Shown here in pieces: positions 28,787-60,218 of a stretch of 64,000 bases of DNA (positions are counted from its first letter, which is position 1; the number at the start of each line of letters is the position of its first letter). The DNA is taken from the NCBI GenBank assembly GCA_025360605.1, contig JANYBV010000022.1:1-64000 (forward strand). Direction: 5' to 3'. The position numbers were made by a program, and so were the translations under genes. The stretch is from Alphaproteobacteria bacterium (GTDB taxonomy: Bacteria; Pseudomonadota; Alphaproteobacteria; Rickettsiales; SXRF01). The notes under the pieces were generated by a model. It worked only from the letters and a program-made list of their open reading frames with translations. It was not told the origin of the DNA and made no database searches.

Positions 28787-29908
28787 TCAAGATTTTTGCG
28801 GTTCCGGCAGCAAATAATTTTTGCGCAACCTCAGGAAGGGTTTTTCGATCAGGCCGTAAGTAGCGGCGCTGAAAAGCGTAAGTAACGGAAAAATAATCAG
28901 CGTCGCAATGGCTAACTTGTTGTAAAAACCCGCCCCCATCAAAAAGCGTGTATTGGCATATATAATAAGAAAGGGAAGTAGCTGAAAGTGGTTGAGATAG
29001 ATGGAATAAGACCATCTTCCCAGTGCTGACAGCGGTTGGTCGAGGCGTTTGGGGATACGCAATTGCAGGTAGGCGATAATCATCAGCGAATAGCATGCCG
29101 CCTCAATGGTCGGCAGTACCACCCAAAAGAAATCCGTTGAAGGATGGTCACCATATTCATACAGCCCGCCTTGAAACTGGACATACTCATACAGTAGCAT
29201 AATACCTGCAAAGCCGGAAATACCGAGGCGTTTAAGTATCTGTGTATGATCGGGGCGGGATATTTTAAGCCACTGTTCAAGGTGGAAGGCTGCCGCCCCT
29301 AATATGAATTGGTCGGCGTGTCCCCAGATTGTCCAGTAGGAAAGGTATTGCACCGAACCGGTGAGATACCATTGCAGAAAACGATGGCCTATCAGGGCAA
29401 TTAAAAACCATAGCAGGACTTTAGCACCATATTTGCGCACGCCAAACAGGATAACGGGTAATGCGAGGTAGTATTGCAGTTCGATATATATCGTCCACGA
29501 GCCTTGCGGGTGGAGTATTTTCGTCACTAGCTGGGTGAAGAGTTCCATGGAATTTTCTTTAGCCGCCATGAACTGGTCAATGAGTGCCAGCGATTCGGAG
29601 ACGCCCCAGAAAATCACTAGCGGCAATAGCCTGAGTATACGGTTAAACCAGAATTTGACGATGTGGATGCGCTTGCCATGAGTGAGATAGGTAAAGATGT
29701 AGCCACTGATACACATGAAAAGTGCTACGCCCGAGTATCCCTGTTCCAGCAACGAAAAAAACGGTGTGTAGATATGATAAAGTCCCTGACACTGCATATT
29801 GGGGCAGGCGGTGGAATAGTGGGTGAAATGCCAGATAAAAACCATAAAGGCGGCGAACGCCCGTAAGTGGTCGAGATTAGAAAGGTATGTCTGACTGCTT
29901 GATCGCAT
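28787..29908 (-). CDS. Membrane acyltransferase 3 family (OafA/YrhL-like)
   Basis: 373-residue integral membrane O-acyltransferase. The N terminus has the family signature LDHLRAFAAFMVFIWHF with the catalytic-type His near residue 27. It continues with GYSGVALFMCISGYIFTYL and FWFNRILRLLPLVIFW, then many hydrophobic segments and the closing FLRLRKN. Such enzymes acylate lipopolysaccharide O-chains, capsules or other surface glycans. It lies between mfd (15 bases upstream) and parE (31 bases downstream), both minus, so it is probably read through from mfd. Confidence 0.88.
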   Translation of the reverse strand: MRSSSQTYLSNLDHLRAFAAFMVFIWHFTHYSTACPNMQCQGLYHIYTPFFSLLEQGYSGVALFMCISGYIFTYLTHGKRIHIVKFWFNRILRLLPLVIFWGVSESLALIDQFMAAKENSMELFTQLVTKILHPQGSWTIYIELQYYLALPVILFGVRKYGAKVLLWFLIALIGHRFLQWYLTGSVQYLSYWTIWGHADQFILGAAAFHLEQWLKISRPDHTQILKRLGISGFAGIMLLYEYVQFQGGLYEYGDHPSTDFFWVVLPTIEAACYSLMIIAYLQLRIPKRLDQPLSALGRWSYSIYLNHFQLLPFLIIYANTRFLMGAGFYNKLAIATLIIFPLLTLFSAATYGLIEKPFLRLRKNYLLPEPQKS

Positions 29909-35640: not shown

Positions 35641-36387
35641 TTATCCTTGTTGGGAAAAGGGAATAATGCCTGCCAGCCTATCGGCCAGACCCTGCTGTTC
35701 TGCGCTTAGGCTTAGCGTGTGGGCGGTGGGTTTGGAGCGGTAAAGCTTGGGGTCGATGAATGCGGTGATTTCTTTTTCGGTCGGTAGTGCCAAACGCCGC
35801 GCCCCGTAATCCACAAGTTGTTGGTAGAGATTATGGCAGGTTTGGGCGGGGTGTTTTAGCACGTCTTCGTGCCGGATGTGTATTCTGGGCAGATCGTGGG
35901 AATGACGGACGATACCGCGGGCATAGCGTTCCCAGAGCTGCAGGCCATTTTCGAGGGGAAAACCGTCCCGTTTCTGAAGCGATAGTGCTATTTCTACAGG
36001 ATCACGGTGTACAATAACGATGATCGGGACTTCCAGAAAACGCCGCCACAACGGTAAAAGCAGGCAAAGGCGCGGGTCTTTCAGCACCCACGGGCGGAAA
36101 GCATCCATTCCAAGGATAATTTTATTCATTGTTTTCAATTGGCTGTCATGTGCCATGGGTGGGGCGTTTATGTTCCAGCGGGCGAGGTCGTGCCATGAAC
36201 AACCTTGCGCCGCCAGAATGGATTCATTGAGCTTGAACACTTCGGGACGTTCCCAAAAACCTTTTGGATTATCGATGGTTATCTCGCCAACGCTGCTTTC
36301 GGGGCCAAAATAGGCCCCCATCATATTGATCAGGCGCGTCGTGATCGACGTGCCGGAGCGGTGCATCCCTAATACGATAATCTGCAT
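35641..36387 (-). CDS. Sulfotransferase family protein
   Basis: 248-residue predicted cytoplasmic sulfotransferase using PAPS. The 5'-phosphosulfate loop is LGMHRSGTSI at the extreme N terminus. The 3'-phosphate site IVHRDPVEIALSL lies in the middle, and VLKDPRLCLLLPLW precedes it. No signal peptide. The gene is divergent from the giant glycosyltransferase/hydroxylase gene with 109 bases between the starts, so the two may share control and act on the same glycan or protein. The acceptor is unknown. Confidence 0.85.
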   Translation of the reverse strand: MQIIVLGMHRSGTSITTRLINMMGAYFGPESSVGEITIDNPKGFWERPEVFKLNESILAAQGCSWHDLARWNINAPPMAHDSQLKTMNKIILGMDAFRPWVLKDPRLCLLLPLWRRFLEVPIIVIVHRDPVEIALSLQKRDGFPLENGLQLWERYARGIVRHSHDLPRIHIRHEDVLKHPAQTCHNLYQQLVDYGARRLALPTEKEITAFIDPKLYRSKPTAHTLSLSAEQQGLADRLAGIIPFSQQG

Positions 36388-36496
36388 AATCTGTGATTCG
36401 GCTATTTTTATTATTTATCAATAGTACTGTAATACCCTATAGTCCTCCTGTTAAACAACTGTAAACATAACGTGTTTTCTTACCAAGCTGCTCTCC

Positions 36497-39400
36497 ATGA
36501 CGAATGACTACACAGTATGGATCGTCTCTCCGCCGGAGCTGATATGGTCGCATGTCTTTGACGAGCTGGCGCTTGGCCTGCAATCGGCGTTCCGCTCGCT
36601 GGGTTATGGCGTGGAGATTGTTACGGATCCGAAAGCGATTGAAGGCGTGCCAATTGTGCTGGGTGCGAATTTATGCCCGATGTATCACATTGCGCTGCCT
36701 GACAATGCTATCATTTATAATTTCGAGCAGGTGCATCCTGCATCGAGCTGGTTTGATCTCGGCTATGGTTATATCGAATTACTGAAAAAATATCCGGTCT
36801 GGGATTTCAGTAAAGTAAATATTCAGGCGCTCAAGGCATTTGGTATTGAAGACGTGGTACATTGCGCGGTGGGATATGTACCGGAGCTGACACGCATCCG
36901 CCGATCGAAAGAAGATATCGACGTGGTGTTTGTGGGCGGCGGACATCCGCGCCGCCAAAAAATTCTCGACCTTATTGCCAAAAGCGGTGCAAGGCTGCAC
37001 ACGGTATATAAGGTGTTTGGCAAGGAACGCGACGACTGGATTGCGCGCGGTAAAATCCATCTCAACCTGCACAAGGAACCCGCCGGACTGTTCGAGATTG
37101 TCCGCGTGTCGTACCTGCTGGCAAATCGCTGTTTTGTTATTTCGGAAAACTGCACCGACACCGACATCACCGATGAATTTAAAGAAGGCGTGGTGTTCTG
37201 TGACTATGATCAGCTGGTCGAGCGCACACTGCATTATCTTGTCACCCCTAAAGAACGCAAGCGCATTGCCGAGGCGGGATTCGAACTTTTCCGTAAACGC
37301 TCGCAATCGGATTATCTGGCGCAGGCGCTGGAAGATCACCGTCGCACACAGGCATTAAAGCGCGAGGCGCTTAGCGCGACATACAGCAATAGCGGAAAAG
37401 CTGTGTTGCCCCTGCCACGTATTTTTGTAGCCATCGCCAGCTACCGCGATACCGAAATTCAACCCACCTTACAGGACCTGTTTTCAAAAGCTTCGTATCC
37501 AAGCCGCATCAATGTAGGTGTTTGTTTGCAGATTGATCCCGATGAAGATAAAGGCTGCACTATCCATCCGGATCTGCGCCCAGCGCAGGTGCGTGTTGCA
37601 CAGTTCCATTACAGCGAAAGCAAAGGAGCCAACTGGGCACGGGTGAAAGCGATCGAGCTGAAGCAGGATGAGGAGTATGTGCTGATGATCGACAGCCATA
37701 TGCGTTTTGCCCATGGTTGGGATGAGGCGATGTTGGAAATGCTGTCGCAATGCGTTGCAGAAAAGCCCGTCCTTTCGGGGTATGTGCCGGATTATAACCC
37801 GCCCAACCGGCTGATTCAGCATCAAGGCGTGTTGTTACGCACGCGCCTGCGCCGTCCCAAACATCCCTCTGACCCGCGCCTGATTCATATCAGCGGCGAG
37901 ATGGTGCCGTTGTCGGATGAACGTACGAAGACGCTGTATCCATCACCGTTTTGCATTGCGAACTTCATTTTTATGCGCTCGTCGGTGCTGGATGAGGTGC
38001 CGATTGACCCGCACATTCACTTCTGGGGTGATGAAATTAACTTTGCCGCTCGACTGTGGACGCATGGCTATGATATTTTCCAGCCCAACCGCATCATCAT
38101 TTACCATTACTGGGTGCGTAAGGAGCATTTCCACCTGCATGATTACCGTGAATATTTCACGGATGAAAATAAGCGCTCGCTGGCGCGGATCCGGCATCTT
38201 CTGGGATTAAAAAAAACCGATGATGCACAGGCGCTGGTGGATATTAAAAAATATGGCCTTGGCAATGCACGCTCACTGAAAGATTTATGGGCGTTTGCCG
38301 GAATAGACTGGAAAAAATACGACATCACCGCAGATGCGGAAGAGGGAATATGGAATATGACGGCGCGTGAGAAAGGACGTGGAAAACAATCGGCTGCGTC
38401 CGGCCAGTCACTGCAATTGTTTGCACCTGACCCGCCACCGACCATTTTTCGCATGGATAAACCAAGGATATTTGTCCAGATCGCCAGCTACCGCGACCCT
38501 GACTGTCAATTGACGGTTAAAGATTTGTTTGAAAAAGCTACCCATCCCGAGCGCATCACCGTGGGTATTTGCTGGCAGTTTATCCGCGAGGAAGACCAGA
38601 GCTGCTTTGTTGTTCCATATCCATACCCCGATCAGGTGCGCGTCCACGAGGTGGATGCAAGGCAAAGCAAGGGCGTATGCTGGGCGCGTGGGTTTACACA
38701 AAAGTTGTGGCAGGGGGAAGAATTTACCTTCCAGATCGATAGCCATATGCGGTTTGAGCAAGGCTGGGACGAGATGCTGCTGTCGATGTGGAAAGATTGC
38801 GGCAGCGAAAAAGCGGTGCTTACCTGTTATCCGCCTGCATTCACGCCGCCGGACAAGATGGAGGGTAAGTGGATTTTTGGCATGAGCGCCAAAGAATTTG
38901 ATGTATACGGTATTTTTCTGATGCTTGGTGCGCCTGCATTTGAGGTGGGGGTGAACGAACCTTCCCGCCCACTGCTCGGCGCATTTGCCAGCGCCAATAC
39001 GTTGTTTGGCCCATCCAGCATGATCAGGGATGTGCCTTATGATCCGGACCTCTATTTCTTTGGCGAGGAAATTTCAATGGCGGTGCGTTTATGGACGCAT
39101 GGCTACGATTTGTACCATCCCAACCGCCTGTTTATTTATCACGACTGGTACCGGTGGAAACGCCCTACACATTTTGGTGACAACAAGGAGTGGCAAAAAG
39201 CCAATGAGATTTCCTTCGGCCGCGTGAAACACCTGCTGAATATTGAACGCAGCAATGACCCTGTGGTTTTGCATAATCTTGACAAGTATGGGCTTGGAAA
39301 CGTCCGTACACTTGAGCAATATCAGGAGTATTCGGGAGTTGATTTCGCTCAAAGACAGATTCAGCCGCATTCCTATAAAGGAATTTTTTCGTTTGCGAAA

Positions 39401-42400
39401 GCAAGGCCTGAACTGACGCATGACATCATTGTTAATTTAACTCACACTACTAAAAACACAAAGAGCAGCCCTATGACCACACAGAGTGCAGGCAAAATGC
39501 CTAAAATATTTATCAATATCGCCAGCTACCGCGACCCCGAGTGTCAGTGGACGGTAAAGGATTTATTTGAGAAAGCCACATACCCTGACCGTATCAATGT
39601 GGGTATTTGCTGGCAGTTCGATCCGGCAGAGGACAAGCATTGCTTTGAAATCAGCACACGTCCCGAACAGGTGCGTATGCTGCCGGTGGATTGGCGTGAA
39701 GCTCAGGGCGTATGCTGGGCGCGTCATGAAACGCAGAAGCTGTGGGAGGGGGAAGAATACACCCTTATGACCGACAGCCATATGCGTTTTGTCCCCGGCT
39801 GGGATGAGCTGATGATTAAGGAGCTGGATGCCTGCGAATCCAGCAAGCCCGTGTTGTCATGTTCTCCGGTGCCTTATACTCCACCTAATAATCTGGGTAC
39901 GCGCATGTACCCCACCATCCGTCGTGTGAAGCCTTTTCAGCCAGATGGTAACATCCGTTGTCAGGGAGAAATGCTGGACCGTTCGCCTCCCAAGCCGCTG
40001 AAGGGTGCATTCCTTGTCGCTAATTTTATTTTTTCGCGTTCGGAAATCACGTCCGAAGTGCCTTATGATCCGTTCCTGTATTTCGATCAGGAAGAAATCA
40101 GCTATGCCGCGCGCGTCTACACCTATGGATGGGATGTGTTCAGTGCGAGAAACCAGTTCCTTTACCATTTTTACAATGATGCCAAAGTGCCCACCGGTTC
40201 GGTGAGGCCCTTGCACTGGCGCGATCTTCATAAGGAAAACGAACAGCATATCCGCTTTCTGCGTGAGCGCGGCCTTAAGCGCTTTAATCACCTGACCAAA
40301 TATAATGTTTCAACCGATCCGGAGGTAATCCAACAGCTCGATCTCTATGGATTTGGCCCTGTGCGTACACTGGAACAATATGAGCAGTTTTCAGGTGTCG
40401 ATTTCAAAAACAAGGTTGCAACAGAAAGGGCGCTACGCTGTCAATTCATCGAGAATTTACACCTGTACCGTGATCGTCCCATCCATGTGCCTGAGGTCGA
40501 TGACAATAAACCTAAAGCGGCTCAGGCCGCCGTTCCGGTTCAGCCTGTTATTCCGGCTCGGACGGTGGCTCCGGTGCAACTTACCAATAGTCTTGCTAAC
40601 GACCGGACGGTTCCGTTAATGCCAAAACCTGCTGCCGTTGTAACCCATGCACCTCTTGCCATAGCTAAAAATACAGAGAAAAATACTATCCTTCCCGCAT
40701 TTCCACAGATGCTGGAGGCGGGTGATTTTTTTCCGTTAATCGAACTGGATGATACCAGTAAAAAAGTGCGGGCTATTGAGGTTTTTGCCGGTAAATTATG
40801 CATAGTGACCTATTTGCCATCGGATCAGCCTGAATTTCTGGCAAAATTTTTCCATGAACAAGGGCAGCGAACAACGGCGGCAAGGATTCAGGATACATGG
40901 CAAATTTTTATCCTCGATGATACCGCCGAGAGGCTCATTGAATTGCGACAGAGAATGAATATAGCCTCCACGTTGCATGCAGATCCAAACCGTATCTTCG
41001 CGCGTGCTGCGGGCATCGCGCGCAGGGGTGAAAATTTTACACCGGTGGGGTTTGTGCTTAATACGAACCTCAAAATACTGCATCGCCATAGCAGCCATGA
41101 CCCATTGCAGCTATCGTCAGGTTTGGTGCATTATTGTGCTGTCGAAATGGAAAAAAGGAAAGAAAAAGATGCCAAAAGGCAAATCATTTCGCAGATGGCT
41201 CCTGCTTTAATCGTGCCGGATGTGCTGTCGCCTGAATTATGCGCCAAATGCCTCCACGCTTTTAACACCGGTAATACGTTTGACGGAACGGTTGGGGCGC
41301 TGGAAGGCAAAGCCTATCGCGCGGATATTAAAGTTCGCACCGACTATGTGGTTCACGGTGAATTACTGGCAGAACTTGATGATAAGCTATCGCGGAGCTT
41401 CTATCCCGAGATCAAAAAAATCTTTGGTTTTGAGGTGACTCACCGCGAACTTTTTAAAATTGGCATGTATTCGGGTGAAAAAAATGGCTTTTTTAAGCAG
41501 CACCGTGATAATTTTGATGCCCCGCTCGGTTATCGTCGCGTTGCGGCTACGATTCAGTTGAATGATGATTATGAAGGCGGCGGCTTACGCTTTCCTGAAT
41601 ATGATGACCATGTTTATCGTCCGTCAATGGGTGCGGCGATTGCGTTTTCTTGCTCTACTCTGCATGAGGCACGACCTGTTACCAAAGGCGCGCGTTATAT
41701 AGTGGTGGGATTCTTCCATGGCCAGCAAGATGAGGCTTTCCGTCATTATTTTGTTAAATCGAAGAACGGTCCGACCAACCAGAAAGATTTTAATCCGGTT
41801 TTAAGACGCTATCCTGACGTCCGCCAGAGTCGTGGATTCTATGAAAAATGGCAAAAGGAAAACGTCAGTTTTACCCCTGAAAACAAAGTGGCTGCGCCTT
41901 CGGAATCAGGACTTGTAACGCCAGCGAAAACATCATTGGGTGTAATGATCAAAACGGCAGGCGATCATCAGGCCAGAAAAATGATGGAAACAAGACAGGC
42001 CATCGTTATTGATGATTTTCTGCCTGAGAATGTCTATAAATCTATCAGTGATTATATGCTCACCGCAGACTATGAGCGCATCAATACCACCGGAAAATCG
42101 GTGCGTGCATGGCATGTCCATGACGGATTTCCTCTGCGAAGTACCGTAAACATGTTTTATAATGCCCACGGCAGTCATTCGCACAGTGGCGAGCATGTCT
42201 ACCCGACAAAGCTCCCGCTTGACCGGCTTATCGAACATATCATTGCTGCGCAGCCATCTATAGAACACATCGTTGGTAAGCAAAGCGTTGACTGGGAACA
42301 TTTTTCAGCTACCGGATGGATGTATCCGCATGGCACCGCCCTTTCAATGCATGACGATGGTTCAGGGGTTTATACGGGGGCGTATGTCTATTTCCTGAAC

Positions 42401-42700
42401 CCCATCTGGCGGCCACATTGGGGAGGGTTACTGGTAGTGGCAGATGAAGAAGCTAACCGTAATGTTCATGAATACCGCAAGAATGTGGACCAGATTGACT
42501 ATTACAAGCGCAAATGGTTACATGCTAACCCTCTGGACGAAATGATGGTACAACATGGTTTCGGGCAGGTGATATTCCCTAAACGTAACCGTATCGTATT
42601 TATCGCTAATGATGCGTACCATATGGTAACGAGAGTAAACGAGCAGTCGGGCGATAATCTGCGGATGTCGCTGGCTGGATTTTTTAATAAAAAGAAATGA
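36497..42700 (+). CDS. Giant fusion: GT-B-like region, three GT60-like domains, redoxin-like domain, two 2OG-Fe(II) oxygenases
   Basis: 2067 residues without signal peptide or membrane segment. Residues 1-290: GT-B-like (CgeB-type) glycosyltransferase region with DVVFVGGGHPRR. Then three homologous GT60-type units at about 308-607, 657-952 and 1003-1305. Each has IASYRD near the start, the metal/nucleotide motif DSHMRF (Asp399, 748, 1093), an LWTHGYD-like late motif (YTYGWD in unit 3) and a closing YGLG-x2-R(S/T)L repeat. A Pro/Ala-rich linker leads to a redoxin-like domain (1405-1550) lacking the catalytic Cys. A prolyl-4-hydroxylase-like domain follows with His1669, Asp1671, His1723 and Arg1733. 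A second oxygenase has His1952, Asp1954, His2042 and Arg2056. GT60 enzymes put GlcNAc on hydroxyproline of eukaryotic Skp1; the target here is unknown. Confidence 0.85.
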   Translation: MTNDYTVWIVSPPELIWSHVFDELALGLQSAFRSLGYGVEIVTDPKAIEGVPIVLGANLCPMYHIALPDNAIIYNFEQVHPASSWFDLGYGYIELLKKYPVWDFSKVNIQALKAFGIEDVVHCAVGYVPELTRIRRSKEDIDVVFVGGGHPRRQKILDLIAKSGARLHTVYKVFGKERDDWIARGKIHLNLHKEPAGLFEIVRVSYLLANRCFVISENCTDTDITDEFKEGVVFCDYDQLVERTLHYLVTPKERKRIAEAGFELFRKRSQSDYLAQALEDHRRTQALKREALSATYSNSGKAVLPLPRIFVAIASYRDTEIQPTLQDLFSKASYPSRINVGVCLQIDPDEDKGCTIHPDLRPAQVRVAQFHYSESKGANWARVKAIELKQDEEYVLMIDSHMRFAHGWDEAMLEMLSQCVAEKPVLSGYVPDYNPPNRLIQHQGVLLRTRLRRPKHPSDPRLIHISGEMVPLSDERTKTLYPSPFCIANFIFMRSSVLDEVPIDPHIHFWGDEINFAARLWTHGYDIFQPNRIIIYHYWVRKEHFHLHDYREYFTDENKRSLARIRHLLGLKKTDDAQALVDIKKYGLGNARSLKDLWAFAGIDWKKYDITADAEEGIWNMTAREKGRGKQSAASGQSLQLFAPDPPPTIFRMDKPRIFVQIASYRDPDCQLTVKDLFEKATHPERITVGICWQFIREEDQSCFVVPYPYPDQVRVHEVDARQSKGVCWARGFTQKLWQGEEFTFQIDSHMRFEQGWDEMLLSMWKDCGSEKAVLTCYPPAFTPPDKMEGKWIFGMSAKEFDVYGIFLMLGAPAFEVGVNEPSRPLLGAFASANTLFGPSSMIRDVPYDPDLYFFGEEISMAVRLWTHGYDLYHPNRLFIYHDWYRWKRPTHFGDNKEWQKANEISFGRVKHLLNIERSNDPVVLHNLDKYGLGNVRTLEQYQEYSGVDFAQRQIQPHSYKGIFSFAKARPELTHDIIVNLTHTTKNTKSSPMTTQSAGKMPKIFINIASYRDPECQWTVKDLFEKATYPDRINVGICWQFDPAEDKHCFEISTRPEQVRMLPVDWREAQGVCWARHETQKLWEGEEYTLMTDSHMRFVPGWDELMIKELDACESSKPVLSCSPVPYTPPNNLGTRMYPTIRRVKPFQPDGNIRCQGEMLDRSPPKPLKGAFLVANFIFSRSEITSEVPYDPFLYFDQEEISYAARVYTYGWDVFSARNQFLYHFYNDAKVPTGSVRPLHWRDLHKENEQHIRFLRERGLKRFNHLTKYNVSTDPEVIQQLDLYGFGPVRTLEQYEQFSGVDFKNKVATERALRCQFIENLHLYRDRPIHVPEVDDNKPKAAQAAVPVQPVIPARTVAPVQLTNSLANDRTVPLMPKPAAVVTHAPLAIAKNTEKNTILPAFPQMLEAGDFFPLIELDDTSKKVRAIEVFAGKLCIVTYLPSDQPEFLAKFFHEQGQRTTAARIQDTWQIFILDDTAERLIELRQRMNIASTLHADPNRIFARAAGIARRGENFTPVGFVLNTNLKILHRHSSHDPLQLSSGLVHYCAVEMEKRKEKDAKRQIISQMAPALIVPDVLSPELCAKCLHAFNTGNTFDGTVGALEGKAYRADIKVRTDYVVHGELLAELDDKLSRSFYPEIKKIFGFEVTHRELFKIGMYSGEKNGFFKQHRDNFDAPLGYRRVAATIQLNDDYEGGGLRFPEYDDHVYRPSMGAAIAFSCSTLHEARPVTKGARYIVVGFFHGQQDEAFRHYFVKSKNGPTNQKDFNPVLRRYPDVRQSRGFYEKWQKENVSFTPENKVAAPSESGLVTPAKTSLGVMIKTAGDHQARKMMETRQAIVIDDFLPENVYKSISDYMLTADYERINTTGKSVRAWHVHDGFPLRSTVNMFYNAHGSHSHSGEHVYPTKLPLDRLIEHIIAAQPSIEHIVGKQSVDWEHFSATGWMYPHGTALSMHDDGSGVYTGAYVYFLNPIWRPHWGGLLVVADEEANRNVHEYRKNVDQIDYYKRKWLHANPLDEMMVQHGFGQVIFPKRNRIVFIANDAYHMVTRVNEQSGDNLRMSLAGFFNKKK

Positions 42701-42707
42701 GTACCCG

Positions 42708-44291
42708 ATGACATCGTTAAAAGAACTTGCCGCTGGATCCAGCGCATGGCCGTTTCAGGAAGCCTTAAGCATTGCGGAGCGCTATAAAGACGCGCCTCCT
42801 GCGAAGGGCTATGTGTTATTTGAAACCGGTTATGGCCCGTCGGGTTTGCCGCATATCGGCACGTTTGGCGAAGTGGCGCGCACCACCATGGTGCGTCGCG
42901 CATTCGAGGTAATCAGCGACATTCCCACCAAGCTGATCTGCTTTTCCGACGATATGGACGGGTTGCGTAAAGTACCCGATAACCTGCCCAACAAGGACAT
43001 GATTGCCGCTAATATAGGTAAGCCGCTCACCGCTATTCCTGATCCGTTTGGTACGCATGAAAGCTTCGGCGCACACATGAACGCCAAGCTTCGCGAGTTT
43101 CTTGACCATTTCGGGTTTCAGTATGAATTCAAAAGCTCCACCAAAACCTACAAGTCAGGTGAATTCGATAAGACGTTGTTGACGTTGCTGGATCGCTACC
43201 AGCAGGTGATGGACGTGATGTTGCCAACGCTTGGCGAAGAACGTCAGCAGACCTACAGTCCGTTTCTGCCTGTAAGCCCGCGCTCGGGTAAAGTGTTGCT
43301 GGCGAAGGTGTTTGAAACAAACGTCAGCAAAGGCACCATTGTATACGAAGAAGAGGACGGTACGAAAGAAGAAGTGCCCGTCACAGGCGGTCATTGCAAA
43401 CTGCAATGGAAGCCTGACATGGGCATGCGCTGGGCAGCGCTCGGTGTGGATTATGAAATGTACGGCAAAGACCATTTAAGCTCTGCCGAGTTATATAGCG
43501 CCATTTGCAGCATTGCCGGTGGTAAGCCGCCGCAGCAGATGATGTATGAATTGTTTCTCGATGACAAAGGGCAGAAGATTTCCAAATCCAAAGGCAATGG
43601 CCTGACGATTGATGAATGGTTGCGTTACGCGCCGCCGGAATCGCTGAGCCTGTATATGTTCCAGTCGCCGCGCAAGGCAAAGCGTCTTTATTTTGATGTG
43701 ATTCCGCGCGCCGTGGATGATTATCAGACCTACATCGAAAAATTCCCGAAGGAAGAACCACTCGCACAGCTCAATAACCCTGTGTACCACATCCATTCCG
43801 GCAACCCGCCGAAACCCGAAGGCACCCCCGGATTTAACCTGTTGCTGAACCTTGCCGGTGTGGCGCAGGCGGAAGACCCGAAAGTGCTGTGGGGCTACAT
43901 CAGCAACTATATGCCGGATGTATCGGCCAAGACGCATCCGTTCCTCGACCAGCTGGTGAAAGGCGCGGTGAACTACTACCACGACTTCATCAAGCCGACG
44001 AAGAAATACCGTCTGCCGACCGACGTGGAAGAGAAGGGGTTACACGACCTTGCCATCTATCTCGAAAAAGTTCCGGAAAACGCCACTGCTGAAGAAATCC
44101 AGACGGAGATCTACGAGATTGGCAAAAAATACTTTGCCGAAAATCTGAAAGCATGGTTTTCGACGTTGTATGAAACGCTGCTCGGCCAGCCGCAGGGGCC
44201 GCGTATGGGGTCGTTTGTGAAGCTGTATGGCCGTACGGAATCCATTGCCCTGATCCGCCGCGTGATAGCTAAAGAAAATCTGGCAGCCTGA
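42708..44291 (+). CDS. lysS: Lysyl-tRNA synthetase, class I (archaeal type)
   Basis: 527-residue class I LysRS, the form used by Archaea and many alphaproteobacteria instead of the class II enzyme. Rossmann-fold signatures are present: GPSGLPHIGTFGE (HIGH box) and QKISKSKGNGL (KMSKS box). The alpha-helix-cage C-terminal region is complete, ending with YGRTESIALIRRV. ATG 42708 begins seven bases after the giant gene stops, so it may be read through from it. The HAD gene follows after nine bases. Confidence 0.96.
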   Translation: MTSLKELAAGSSAWPFQEALSIAERYKDAPPAKGYVLFETGYGPSGLPHIGTFGEVARTTMVRRAFEVISDIPTKLICFSDDMDGLRKVPDNLPNKDMIAANIGKPLTAIPDPFGTHESFGAHMNAKLREFLDHFGFQYEFKSSTKTYKSGEFDKTLLTLLDRYQQVMDVMLPTLGEERQQTYSPFLPVSPRSGKVLLAKVFETNVSKGTIVYEEEDGTKEEVPVTGGHCKLQWKPDMGMRWAALGVDYEMYGKDHLSSAELYSAICSIAGGKPPQQMMYELFLDDKGQKISKSKGNGLTIDEWLRYAPPESLSLYMFQSPRKAKRLYFDVIPRAVDDYQTYIEKFPKEEPLAQLNNPVYHIHSGNPPKPEGTPGFNLLLNLAGVAQAEDPKVLWGYISNYMPDVSAKTHPFLDQLVKGAVNYYHDFIKPTKKYRLPTDVEEKGLHDLAIYLEKVPENATAEEIQTEIYEIGKKYFAENLKAWFSTLYETLLGQPQGPRMGSFVKLYGRTESIALIRRVIAKENLAA

Positions 44292-58388: not shown

Positions 58389-60218
58389 TTATAGCATAAA
58401 AAATATAGCGGAACTCAGGCCAAACGCCAGACACAACGCCCCGCCAATGGCTAGCCGGAATGGTCGCCAGTCATTAGCGTGTTGTTCACATACGAGGCCA
58501 TATAGTCCGCAAAAACTAACGATTGCGGGATAGATGTAGCGAAAATCCTCGGAGCAGGCGTAAGGGTATAACACACGGTTTTTCATGAGTGCGGCAATAG
58601 GAATTGCAAGGGTAGCCAGACACATCCACCATTCTTTCTTTTGACGCAAATTGTGACGGTGCAGGATATATCCCTCGGTGGTGAAGGCGATAAGAACCAA
58701 TAATAAATCACTCATGATGGTTGCCAGTTTTTTCCAGTCCCAGATAAACTCCCCGAACATCGATGATTTCAGCATCGAGTTCCAGAAATACTGCCTGCCA
58801 TTAACATCTATCCACACGTTCCATAGAGGATTGTCGTGGTATATTTTTATATTGGGAATAAATAATTTATTATAATCGAGAGGCTCCAGCCTGAGCTGGC
58901 GCGACATTAAACCGATATTTCCGACAATCAGCGGCTCATGGCGGTGTTCGCTCAGGTGGTAATATTCTGACCGGCCAAGGCTGGCCAGTGCGCCAAGACA
59001 AAGTATAAGAATTCCCAACCGTATGTAGTGGCTGTCCATGAGGCCTTTGGTTTTCCCCCATGCGATCCGGTGATAGGTCAAGGCAAGGACAATGATGGGT
59101 AACAGGATGAGGGAGTTAGTGCGGGTTGCCAGTGCCAGTCCAAGCATCATGAGCGCGATGCCGAGATGGCGTATGTTATTTTGATTAAGCCAACGCAGCA
59201 TGAAGTAAAGGCAGGCGCTATAAAAACTATAAAACAGAATATTGCTATCAAGGCGGGCGGCAAACATGATGCCCGACGGATAGAAAACAAGCAGTATCAA
59301 TGCAATATAATATGCAATCCTGTTCCTTATCAGCATATGGAGTGTCAGTGCCGAAAAAATAATAAACATCATAAAACAGCCAAGCGAGAAAAGGCGTGCA
59401 AAGGTGAGCGCGTCAAAACTCCGCAAGGCGCTGGCGATGGTTACTACTATCGCCTGAAGCACATAATAAAGTGGAGCATGATAGGACGACCAGCCAAGGA
59501 AAGGCTTGGGAATTTGCCAGTGTTGGGCGATAAAAGCGAAATAGATAACATGTCCGGGTAAATCCATCGAAAAATGGTTCGCACCGAGATAACTCATGCG
59601 TGCCAGATAGACGCAGAATCCGCAGGCAATGATGTAACCGGTTATCCAGCTAGACGTGAGTCGCTCCATAAACACCACGATTGCAAGAGATGTGACCAGA
59701 ATCATGGCCAGCCCGATCCATTGCGCGGGTTTGGTATTGTCAAAGAGTATAACGGGGCCAATATCGAATTCCGGTTTGGGGGTTACCACTTCAATGGTGT
59801 TCCTGCCATTATGCAGGAACTTGGCCAGATCCATATAAACGGGCGGATCATAGGGATTCCAGTACGATCCGGCTTTGGGATCACAGCCGCCAAATTTCTT
59901 AAACGGAATTTCCTTGTGGTTGATGCGTATGAGCTTGATACATGCGCCAGGGGTAATGCTGTATGCGGTCTGCTCAATATCAATGTCGCTGTAGTAGACG
60001 CTTAAGCTGTAGGTAAAATCACCGGTTCCTTTCATGGTGATGATGTCCATGTCAGGAAGAAATTGGGCTATTCGTTGGTTGCCCCGTTTTTCAACACGTA
60101 CTACGCTTTGTGAGGGTAGTGCAAAAAGCTGCATCGCCATGACCAGCACCAGCATTACAAGTACATAGCTGGAAAGGCTTTTTGAGCGGAGTTTATCGGC
60201 AGCAGCGTTCAGGTTCAT
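58389..60218 (-). CDS. GT-C-like membrane protein with periplasmic N-terminal domain
   Basis: 609 residues. One membrane span (about 17-35) is followed by a periplasmic beta-rich domain (about 40-165) and then some ten hydrophobic segments. The loop MDLPGHVIYFAFIAQHWQIPKPFLGWSSYHAPLYYVL resembles the catalytic first loop of ArnT/PMT-like enzymes (acidic residue, then P-x-Y-x3). Further down is ALATRTNSLILLPII. The fold suggests transfer of a sugar from polyprenyl phosphate. Its stop lies one base from that of the convergent GT-C gene. No close family is recognised. Confidence 0.7.
   Translation of the reverse strand: MNLNAAADKLRSKSLSSYVLVMLVLVMAMQLFALPSQSVVRVEKRGNQRIAQFLPDMDIITMKGTGDFTYSLSVYYSDIDIEQTAYSITPGACIKLIRINHKEIPFKKFGGCDPKAGSYWNPYDPPVYMDLAKFLHNGRNTIEVVTPKPEFDIGPVILFDNTKPAQWIGLAMILVTSLAIVVFMERLTSSWITGYIIACGFCVYLARMSYLGANHFSMDLPGHVIYFAFIAQHWQIPKPFLGWSSYHAPLYYVLQAIVVTIASALRSFDALTFARLFSLGCFMMFIIFSALTLHMLIRNRIAYYIALILLVFYPSGIMFAARLDSNILFYSFYSACLYFMLRWLNQNNIRHLGIALMMLGLALATRTNSLILLPIIVLALTYHRIAWGKTKGLMDSHYIRLGILILCLGALASLGRSEYYHLSEHRHEPLIVGNIGLMSRQLRLEPLDYNKLFIPNIKIYHDNPLWNVWIDVNGRQYFWNSMLKSSMFGEFIWDWKKLATIMSDLLLVLIAFTTEGYILHRHNLRQKKEWWMCLATLAIPIAALMKNRVLYPYACSEDFRYIYPAIVSFCGLYGLVCEQHANDWRPFRLAIGGALCLAFGLSSAIFFML

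Follow-up and report, generated by a model that had tools for sequence, protein, structure and literature searches.

A 2067-residue alphaproteobacterial protein with three GT60 glycosyltransferase units and two 2-oxoglutarate oxygenases, a candidate hydroxylate-then-glycosylate enzyme

This work concerns one large gene in a 64,000-nucleotide stretch of DNA, hereafter the window, which covers positions 1 to 64,000 (forward strand) of contig JANYBV010000022.1 in assembly GCA_025360605.1 and comes from a bacterium placed in the Rickettsiales (SXRF01) of the Alphaproteobacteria. The gene is a single uninterrupted open reading frame (ORF), here called the mega-ORF, which encodes an N-terminal GT-B-like glycosyltransferase region, three units of the glycosyltransferase family GT60, a redoxin-fold domain and two Fe(II)/2-oxoglutarate (2OG) oxygenases, the first of prolyl-4-hydroxylase (P4H) type and the second termed OX2 (Table 1). 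An earlier note made from the letters of the DNA had placed a GT-B-like region, three GT60-like units and two oxygenases in one polypeptide, and all of these were recovered; its inventory was incomplete, in that it overlooked the redoxin-fold domain.

Table 1. The mega-ORF, its domains and its immediate neighbours in the window.
Feature	Position	Strand	Basis or remark
Whole multidomain ORF, 2067 residues	36497..42700	+	Uninterrupted, ATG start; orthologues in 10 of 16 family genomes, own included
GT-B-like N-terminal glycosyltransferase region	36497..37396	+	PF13524 at residues 139-278
GT60 unit 1, lineage A, DxH at residue 399	37421..38311	+	Pfam match, tree
GT60 unit 2, lineage B, DxH at residue 748	38468..39349	+	Pfam match, tree
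GT60 unit 3, lineage C, DxH at residue 1093	39506..40408	+	Pfam match, tree, model
Proline/alanine-rich linker, residues 1333-1402	40493..40702	+	Composition
Redoxin (AhpC/TSA) fold domain without peroxidatic Cys, residues about 1403-1530	40703..41086	+	Profile matches in homologues, alignment
P4H-type 2OG oxygenase (H1669, D1671, H1723, R1733)	41174..41752	+	PF13640, alignment
Second 2OG oxygenase, OX2 (H1952, D1954, H2042, R2056)	41972..42697	+	PF13661, alignment
Divergent sulfotransferase gene (PF13469)	35641..36387	-	38 bits, cut-off 27; co-occurs with the mega-ORF
Divergent intergenic region, 109 nt	36388..36496	.	One promoter-like hexamer pair per strand
Class I lysyl-tRNA synthetase gene, 7 nt downstream	42708..44291	+	Pfam

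Domains of the mega-ORF protein

The match to GT60, on which the earlier note had staked its reading, is strong: the Pfam profile PF11397 scores 661 bits against a cut-off of 21, over six stretches that make up three units. The oxygenases match PF13640 (79.3 bits, best stretch 1657-1741) and PF13661 (36.8 bits at 1942-1988), each with a cut-off of 27, and the GT-B-like region matches PF13524 (31.2 bits, cut-off 25). NCBIfam profiles gave only sub-cut-off, PKHD-type matches to the protein. An N-terminus like the GT-B region of the window protein was also found in the homologous loci L025, L027, L028, L031, L035 and L036; it was not seen in L029, L032 and L033. Comparison with the orthologue from the same genus gives a non-synonymous divergence (dN) well below the synonymous (dS) in every domain, at domain identities of 60 to 83%, while two linkers (37 and 47% identity) evolve faster with dN still below dS; the proline/alanine-rich linker is 37.5% identical over 32 aligned codons. 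The ORF is thus not a chance reading frame, since its domains are conserved under dN well below dS and its linkers far less so. The enzyme is probably cytoplasmic, because a hydropathy scan (no signal-peptide predictor was run) found no membrane-type hydrophobic segment, the best 19-residue mean being 1.45.

Each GT60 unit carries the motif DSHMRF, at residues 399, 748 and 1093 as the earlier note had it, and all three retain both the DxH and a C-terminal His. The DxH motif is known in GT27 and GT60, and the C-terminal His binds metal in GT27 (PMC7185993; this and the other papers cited by PMC number are cited from excerpts). A model of unit 3 has a mean predicted local distance difference test (pLDDT) score of 93.5, and polypeptide N-acetylgalactosamine (GalNAc) transferases rank first for it both in Foldseek and in a second structure aligner, where the top 29 rows are all enzymes of this kind (Z 22.9 to 19.3) and other glycosyltransferases begin at 16.6. 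The GT-A fold of the polypeptide N-acetylhexosamine (HexNAc) transferase kind is a result for unit 3 alone among the three units. In this fold, the DxH and the C-terminal His, unit 3 resembles the polypeptide GalNAc-transferases of GT27; unlike them, the window protein shows no Pfam match to a ricin-type lectin domain, is only 9 to 14% identical to the aligned rows and is fused to hydroxylases. Because the best structural matches of the modelled unit are polypeptide GalNAc-transferases, its acceptor is likely to be a protein. By sequence, the GT60 profile matched no PDB chain at E values up to 1, and the units are therefore attractive structural targets, no solved GT60 structure having been found in this way.

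The four residues that the earlier note named as ligands of a P4H-like oxygenase, His1669, Asp1671, His1723 and Arg1733, are invariant in all eight aligned sequences of this domain (1560-1752), the window protein included. OX2 (1826-2067) likewise has a full set of metal and 2OG ligands, invariant in 10 of 10 sequences, an alignment that takes in free-standing enzymes from Serratia, Cupriavidus and Streptomyces plasmids. In a search with a sequence profile of both oxygenases, the P4H part matched the Bacillus anthracis P4H (3.4e-10) and the lysyl hydroxylase LH3 (1.2e-8). For OX2, the Skp1 prolyl hydroxylase PhyA of Dictyostelium was the only significant PDB match (3.4e-4, 23.7 bits), in an alignment that reaches position 173 of 242 and so covers the HxD pair and leaves the distal His outside. 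The earlier note had called the first oxygenase P4H-like; it is OX2 that has PhyA as its only significant solved relative by sequence, and the P4H domain is, on these profile matches, closer to bacterial P4H, lysyl hydroxylase and PKHD enzymes than to PhyA. Proline is favoured as the residue hydroxylated, and lysine is also possible because LH3 matches the P4H domain almost as well.

The structural picture of the oxygenases is less firm than that of GT60 unit 3. The earlier note had expected a jelly-roll fold with the ligands in place, and both segments do align to double-stranded beta-helix hydroxylases with their ligands kept; the model of the two domains together reaches a pLDDT of only 59.7. 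In this model, where rows whose Z differs by less than 1 are ties, the P4H half aligns with PKHD (14.9), the mimivirus enzyme L230 (14.7), LH3 (14.4) and B. anthracis P4H (13.8), and the OX2 half with PPHD, PHD2, OGFOD1 and PhyA as near ties (Z 14.9 to 13.4). The top Foldseek rows for the tandem are OGFOD1 and Tpa1, which also have two jelly-roll domains in succession, at a root-mean-square deviation of about 19 to 23 A, so that a shared arrangement is not established. The second domain of OGFOD1 is inactive; both domains of the window protein, unlike this, keep their metal and 2OG ligands. Among free-standing OX2-type oxygenases, one in Streptomyces (L078 2251-7520) adjoins an ABC-transporter gene and has a DUF692 gene two places away, and one in Serratia (L076 5013-9123) has a peptidase-containing ABC-transporter gene within 2 kb; these surroundings are possible peptide-modification clusters.

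The redoxin-fold domain scores only 12.2 bits in the window protein against the Pfam AhpC/TSA cut-off of 26, and is recognised through its homologues: L026 (39.1), L029 (45.4), L032 (27.3), L033 (26.7) and L034 (39.9) lie above the cut-off, and L025, L031 and L036, whose contig ends within the domain, lie below it. In peroxiredoxins the peroxidatic Cys sits in a PxxxTxxC region. None of the eight aligned sequences has a Cys at this place, which rules out an active peroxiredoxin, and we therefore assign the domain to the fold only and do not file it as a peroxiredoxin despite the profile matches.

GT60 lineages and their oxygenase partners

The earlier note took the GT60 segments for one repeated unit. 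A recent tandem triplication of a single GT60 is rejected (approximately unbiased (AU) test, p = 1.61e-06; log-likelihood 120.6 lower) in a test that held together all family mega-ORF units present in the tree, and the three units are, as their sequences place them, old distinct lineages and not recent duplicates. Three trees were used: tree 1 with 55 rows; tree 2 with 56, after the fragments L034_u1, L035_u2 and L027_u1 and a duplicate L037 row were dropped and five rows added; and tree 3 with 59, after L028_u3, L064 and L066 were dropped and six rows added.

Lineage C, the last unit of the chain, groups with the GT60s of L046, L047, L048, L049 and L052 (99/95, tree 1); with L120 added the values are 98/93 over 16 rows including L037 and 90/68 without L037 (tree 2), and 92/95 and 90/66 (tree 3). 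Several of these outside relatives have one or both of the partners that follow unit 3 in the window protein. L120 is a free-standing GT60-redoxin-P4H protein of 751 residues (AhpC/TSA 39 bits), L052 is a GT60-P4H fusion, and in L046 and L048 a GT60-redoxin protein has a P4H-type gene no more than about 1 kb away; at L046 the 2OG-oxygenase gene ends a few nucleotides upstream of the GT60 gene on the same strand, and at L048 it lies beside the GT60. The 2OG/cupin gene of L047, some 7 kb distant from the GT60, was left out of the count of adjacent genes. The middle unit, lineage B, groups in all three trees with L062 (95/97 over 11 rows including L028_u4 and L107, tree 2), a GT60-OX2 fusion from Synechococcus with a Pfam 2OG match above cut-off and 281 bits against the OX2 profile. 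Two further fusions are L145, a GT60-OX2 protein (OX2 profile 252 bits; Pfam 2OG 24.6 and 23.8 bits, cut-off 27), and L146 of genome G1217, an 875-residue frame in which our own profiles find a P4H-like domain and then GT60, and whose C-terminal part looks ATP-grasp-like by eye only. The genome survey that the earlier note had called for, for the same fusion or for adjacent genes, thus yields both: fused pairs in L062, L145, L052, L120 and L146, and adjacent genes in L046, L048, L105 and L119.

Within the family, each of the 10 loci has either both lineage C and the redoxin(-P4H) segment or neither, counting L036, whose redoxin domain is partly visible before the contig ends. Lineage B and OX2 are present or absent together in all nine testable loci, a count that leaves out L036 and includes L028 and L033, where just the first 101 and 26 residues of OX2 precede the contig end. 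Two loci are telling: L028 has no lineage-C unit and no redoxin-P4H, and its lineage-B unit directly precedes OX2, and L032, a complete ORF, has neither a lineage-B unit nor OX2. From this co-presence and from the outside relatives, the chain looks like a GT60-B/OX2 module into which a GT60-C/redoxin/P4H cassette has been inserted, the whole placed after the GT-B region and the lineage-A GT60. A strict rule of one oxygenase class for each GT60 lineage is not upheld (L145, L105, L146).

The genome of the window (2.68 Mb in 57 contigs, estimated 100% complete) has no GT60 besides the mega-ORF. PF11397 was found in 11 of the 90 genomes searched, this one included: in 10 of 16 family genomes, where it is always a multi-unit protein (the copies of G002 and G011 are split over two contigs), and in one of 74 outside the family, as a single-unit protein. 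Named copies of the mega-loci come from metagenome-assembled genomes labelled Alphaproteobacteria, Pseudomonadota or Rickettsiales. In family genome G004 a further gene (L030 4642-6591), next to one for a RecG-like helicase, encodes two GT60 units. GT60 is rare, being found in six of 385 genomes of the class (own included) and in 19 of 386 genomes of the cyanobacterial phylum, 17 of them over cut-off; among the 18 cyanobacterial places over cut-off, two are fused to a 2OG oxygenase (L120, and L100, which is the same protein as L062) and two adjoin one (L105, L119). Among the matches listed, one spanning GT60, redoxin and P4H was found in the genome of the window alone of 398 Pseudomonadota genomes, a sample from which the other family carriers are absent, and in one of the 63 genomes in the order of G690, namely G690 itself; a few Alphaproteobacteria (G126, G117) have, among the matches listed, a redoxin-P4H match that takes in no GT60. 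Relatives of OX2 and of GT60 occur in phages and viral contigs, where our own profiles showed no such fusion; next to the GT60 of viral contig L097 there is a weak 2OG match, and a viral scan with L052 found nothing.

A proposed activity and its alternatives

We lean, somewhat beyond even chances, towards reading the mega-ORF product as a cytoplasmic, self-contained protein-modifying enzyme built of two hydroxylase/GT60 modules, which would hydroxylate first and glycosylate second. In this model the P4H-type domain and OX2 would act on side chains of a protein target, with proline the most likely residue to be hydroxylated, and GT60 units would then attach HexNAc, most likely N-acetylglucosamine (GlcNAc), to the new hydroxyls. 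The assembly would consist of the GT60-B/OX2 and GT60-C/redoxin/P4H modules, the second nested within the first; the third GT60 and the GT-B domain may lengthen the glycan or work at a different site, the redoxin fold without its Cys probably serves for docking or as a spacer, and capping of the product may fall to the linked sulfotransferase. A product larger than a single GlcNAc is suggested by the extra GT60, the GT-B region and the sulfotransferase. The earlier note had proposed such a self-contained enzyme; the coupling it supposed is backed by the fusions and neighbours elsewhere and by the co-presence within the family, and hydroxyproline chemistry and the target stand in our account as predictions.

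Two known systems frame this proposal. In Toxoplasma and Dictyostelium, PhyA and then Gnt1 act in sequence on Skp1 (PMC6939170, PMC7864055), and the steps of the pathway are described in PMC6939170, PMC7864055 and PMC8724618. Like this pathway (Dictyostelium, Toxoplasma, Pythium), in which Gnt1 belongs to CAZy GT60, the window protein has a putative PHD-type prolyl hydroxylase together with GT60 and is probably soluble, and its OX2 has Dictyostelium PhyA as the only significant solved relative by sequence; unlike it, the enzyme is bacterial and holds three GT60s, two oxygenases, a redoxin fold and a GT-B region in one chain. A Skp1-pathway GlcNAc-transferase of a plant pathogen is the subject of a paper cited in PMC8724618. 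The second system is LH3 (PLOD3) and mimivirus L230, the latter combining hydroxylation and glycosylation activities as LH3 does (PMC9546862). There one chain joins hydroxylation with glycosylation of the new hydroxyl, as we predict for the window enzyme, whose P4H domain matches LH3 by sequence and both L230 and LH3 by structure; the difference is that its glycosyltransferases are GT60/GT27-like and its oxygenases two, while LH3 and L230 act on collagen lysines. Hydroxylation and glycosylation in one chain, and the PhyA-Gnt1 sequence on Skp1, are therefore known already. What is new is that the enzyme is bacterial, that its double module includes a redoxin fold and that a set of such modules occurs free-standing in bacteria: GT60 has been reported from prokaryotes and protists (PMC7185993) and hydroxyproline (Hyp)-linked glycosylation from plants, green algae and protists (PMC8724618), and in searches of the open-access literature we recognised no description of a bacterial hydroxylase-GT60 fusion.

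Several observations weigh against the proposed hydroxylate-then-glycosylate enzyme. We infer its activity and substrate from sequence and models, the model of the two oxygenases being the weak one. GT60 enzymes also act on Ser/Thr (PMC7185993, PMC8724618), and hydroxylation is therefore not required there; according to a review, odd-even pairs of the Skp1 pathway are often fusions in protists (PMC8724618). By our own profiles, no 2OG oxygenase lies closer than about 1.5 kb at 14 of the 18 cyanobacterial GT60 places and at 17 of the 19 Pseudomonadota GT60 loci fetched, L145 and L146 being the exceptions; these are raw counts and may understate oxygenase neighbours, as our 2OG profile is narrow (32 bits for the L119 neighbour, 65 with Pfam). 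GT60 is repeatedly fused to methyltransferases instead (L050, L051, L054, L056, the last of the FkbM kind, and L059). Within lineage C, L037, L047 and L049 have no fused oxygenase, and within lineage B, L107 has none fused or adjacent; lineage B also contains L105, with a P4H gene next door, and L146, with its P4H-like domain fused in front. The GT60 of L145 falls outside lineage B (93/77, tree 3), where joining B is not rejected (AU p = 0.41). Only L028 and L032 differ in module content within the family, so that the co-presence rests on about two events. Finally, motifs are altered in homologues: Q replaces the first Asp of DxH in the first units of L029 and L033, and the third unit of L028 (residues about 933-1223), alone among the units tabulated, has lost both DxH and the C-terminal His and is probably a dead copy, so that not every GT60 unit need be active.

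As targets, a peptide of the ribosomally synthesized and post-translationally modified kind (RiPP) and the elongation factor EF-Tu are live alternatives. Tailoring of a RiPP-like peptide, hydroxylated and glycosylated with sulfation as a further decoration, seems to us unlikely, if the best placed of the rival readings. PqqD-type domains bind RiPP leader peptides, and one GT60 protein, at L057 (9992-12196, 734 residues), is fused to a PqqD domain and has a sub-cut-off HPr-kinase-C match, a fusion that hints at glycosylation of peptide natural products; the free-standing OX2 relatives near DUF692/ABC-transporter genes in Streptomyces and near a peptidase-containing ABC transporter in Serratia point the same way. 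At the window locus, however, the two gaps to which the look for a precursor gene was confined, 109 nt upstream and 7 nt downstream, are too short to hold one, and Pfam identified no peptide exporter among the neighbours scanned, most of which are housekeeping genes.

Next in order, and rather improbable, is the assembly of a surface glycan or lipid, in which no protein would be modified: the glycosyltransferases would make a polysaccharide, the oxygenases would place hydroxyls on a sugar or an acyl chain, and the sulfotransferase would add sulfate. A chain of several glycosyltransferases with GT-B and sulfotransferase partners fits this reading, GT60 shares the general GT-A fold, and some 6.6 kb separate the locus from an acyltransferase-3 gene (28787-29908). 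Yet protein-directed GalNAc-transferases clearly outrank glycan polymerases as structural matches, both oxygenases match protein prolyl or lysyl hydroxylases, the mega-ORF has no membrane-type segment, and the scanned neighbours, which are part of the window ORFs, include no polysaccharide gene cluster.

We give little credence to a loose fusion, in which hydroxylases and glycosyltransferases share a chain for expression and act on separate substrates without coupling. The unrelated partners of GT60 elsewhere, notably the methyltransferases, and the degenerate unit of L028 would suit it, but GT60 is repeatedly fused or adjacent to the same oxygenase superfamily in distant bacteria, and its lineages are co-present with their oxygenase inside the family.

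Least probable of the four is modification of a translation factor, with the oxygenases acting on EF-Tu or a ribosomal protein and GT60 glycosylating the same site: the Pseudomonas EF-Tu prolyl hydroxylase PPHD (which hydroxylates EF-Tu; PMC7864055) and OGFOD1 align with OX2 at Z 14.9 and 13.9 in the weak model, where differences under 1 are ties. The lysyl-tRNA synthetase gene next door accords with it, and this link may be mere genome order. Six family genomes have no GT60 match although EF-Tu is universal.

A wider version of the hydroxylate-then-glycosylate proposal, which we put forward tentatively and regard as doubtful, is that bacteria own a Hyp-glycosylation system of mobile hydroxylase/GT60 modules, that two of these are nested here in an assembly-line enzyme that would build a Hyp-linked glycan, perhaps sulfated, on a protein of the bacterium or of a host, and that free-standing modules were the prokaryotic source of the protist PhyA-Gnt1 oxygen-sensing pair. 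Should the mega-ORF enzyme indeed perform both steps, its minimal relatives of two or three domains, L062, L145, L052 and L120, would allow small recombinant proteins to be used in testing where the protist Skp1 oxygen-sensing pathway came from, bacteria would possess an O2- and 2OG-dependent glycosylation switch, and ready-made fused catalysts would be at hand for installing glycosylated hydroxy-amino acids.

Neighbouring genes and further observations

The sulfotransferase gene that diverges from the mega-ORF has a counterpart in every comparable locus: a PF13469 gene adjoins the mega-ORF in the other nine of nine loci, at 28.5 to 41.9 bits and thus above cut-off. A sequence search with the window sulfotransferase detected it in two carrier genomes included as controls and found no homologue in any of the six family genomes without a mega-ORF; one of these six is 55% complete and four belong to one genus, so that few independent events lie behind the co-occurrence. 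The promoter-like sites in the intergenic region between the two genes are no more numerous than in shuffled sequences. Downstream, the mega-ORF is followed in L025, L029, L031, L032 and L034 by an ORF that resembles the lysyl-tRNA synthetase in size and place, the only criteria used, and the synthetase is probably a neighbour outside the system. Farther off in the window, a gene at 58389-60218 on the minus strand is a candidate of PMT_2 type, the protein mannosyltransferase family (27.1 bits against a cut-off of 26.1).

Collagen-like proteins were considered as an obvious target and show no association with the mega-ORF: matches occur in three of 15 family genomes, namely G000 (that of the window), G001 and G005, of which G005 lacks a mega-ORF, and eight of ten carriers have no collagen-like match. 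Searches of the window genome for Skp1 (PF01466) and for a TLC transporter, a sign of host dependence, gave no match, and are uninformative as their controls were silent too. Small lipoprotein-like proteins with collagen-like G-x-y repeats are encoded at L082 1462-1833 and L081 1468-1857 (genomes G001 and G005). Elsewhere, single GT60 genes lie among type VI secretion genes on Burkholderia ambifaria pBMC401 (L073 5992-7344) and near contractile-tail genes in Azospirillum thermophilum (L074 5995-7218), where they may glycosylate parts or payloads of such machines.

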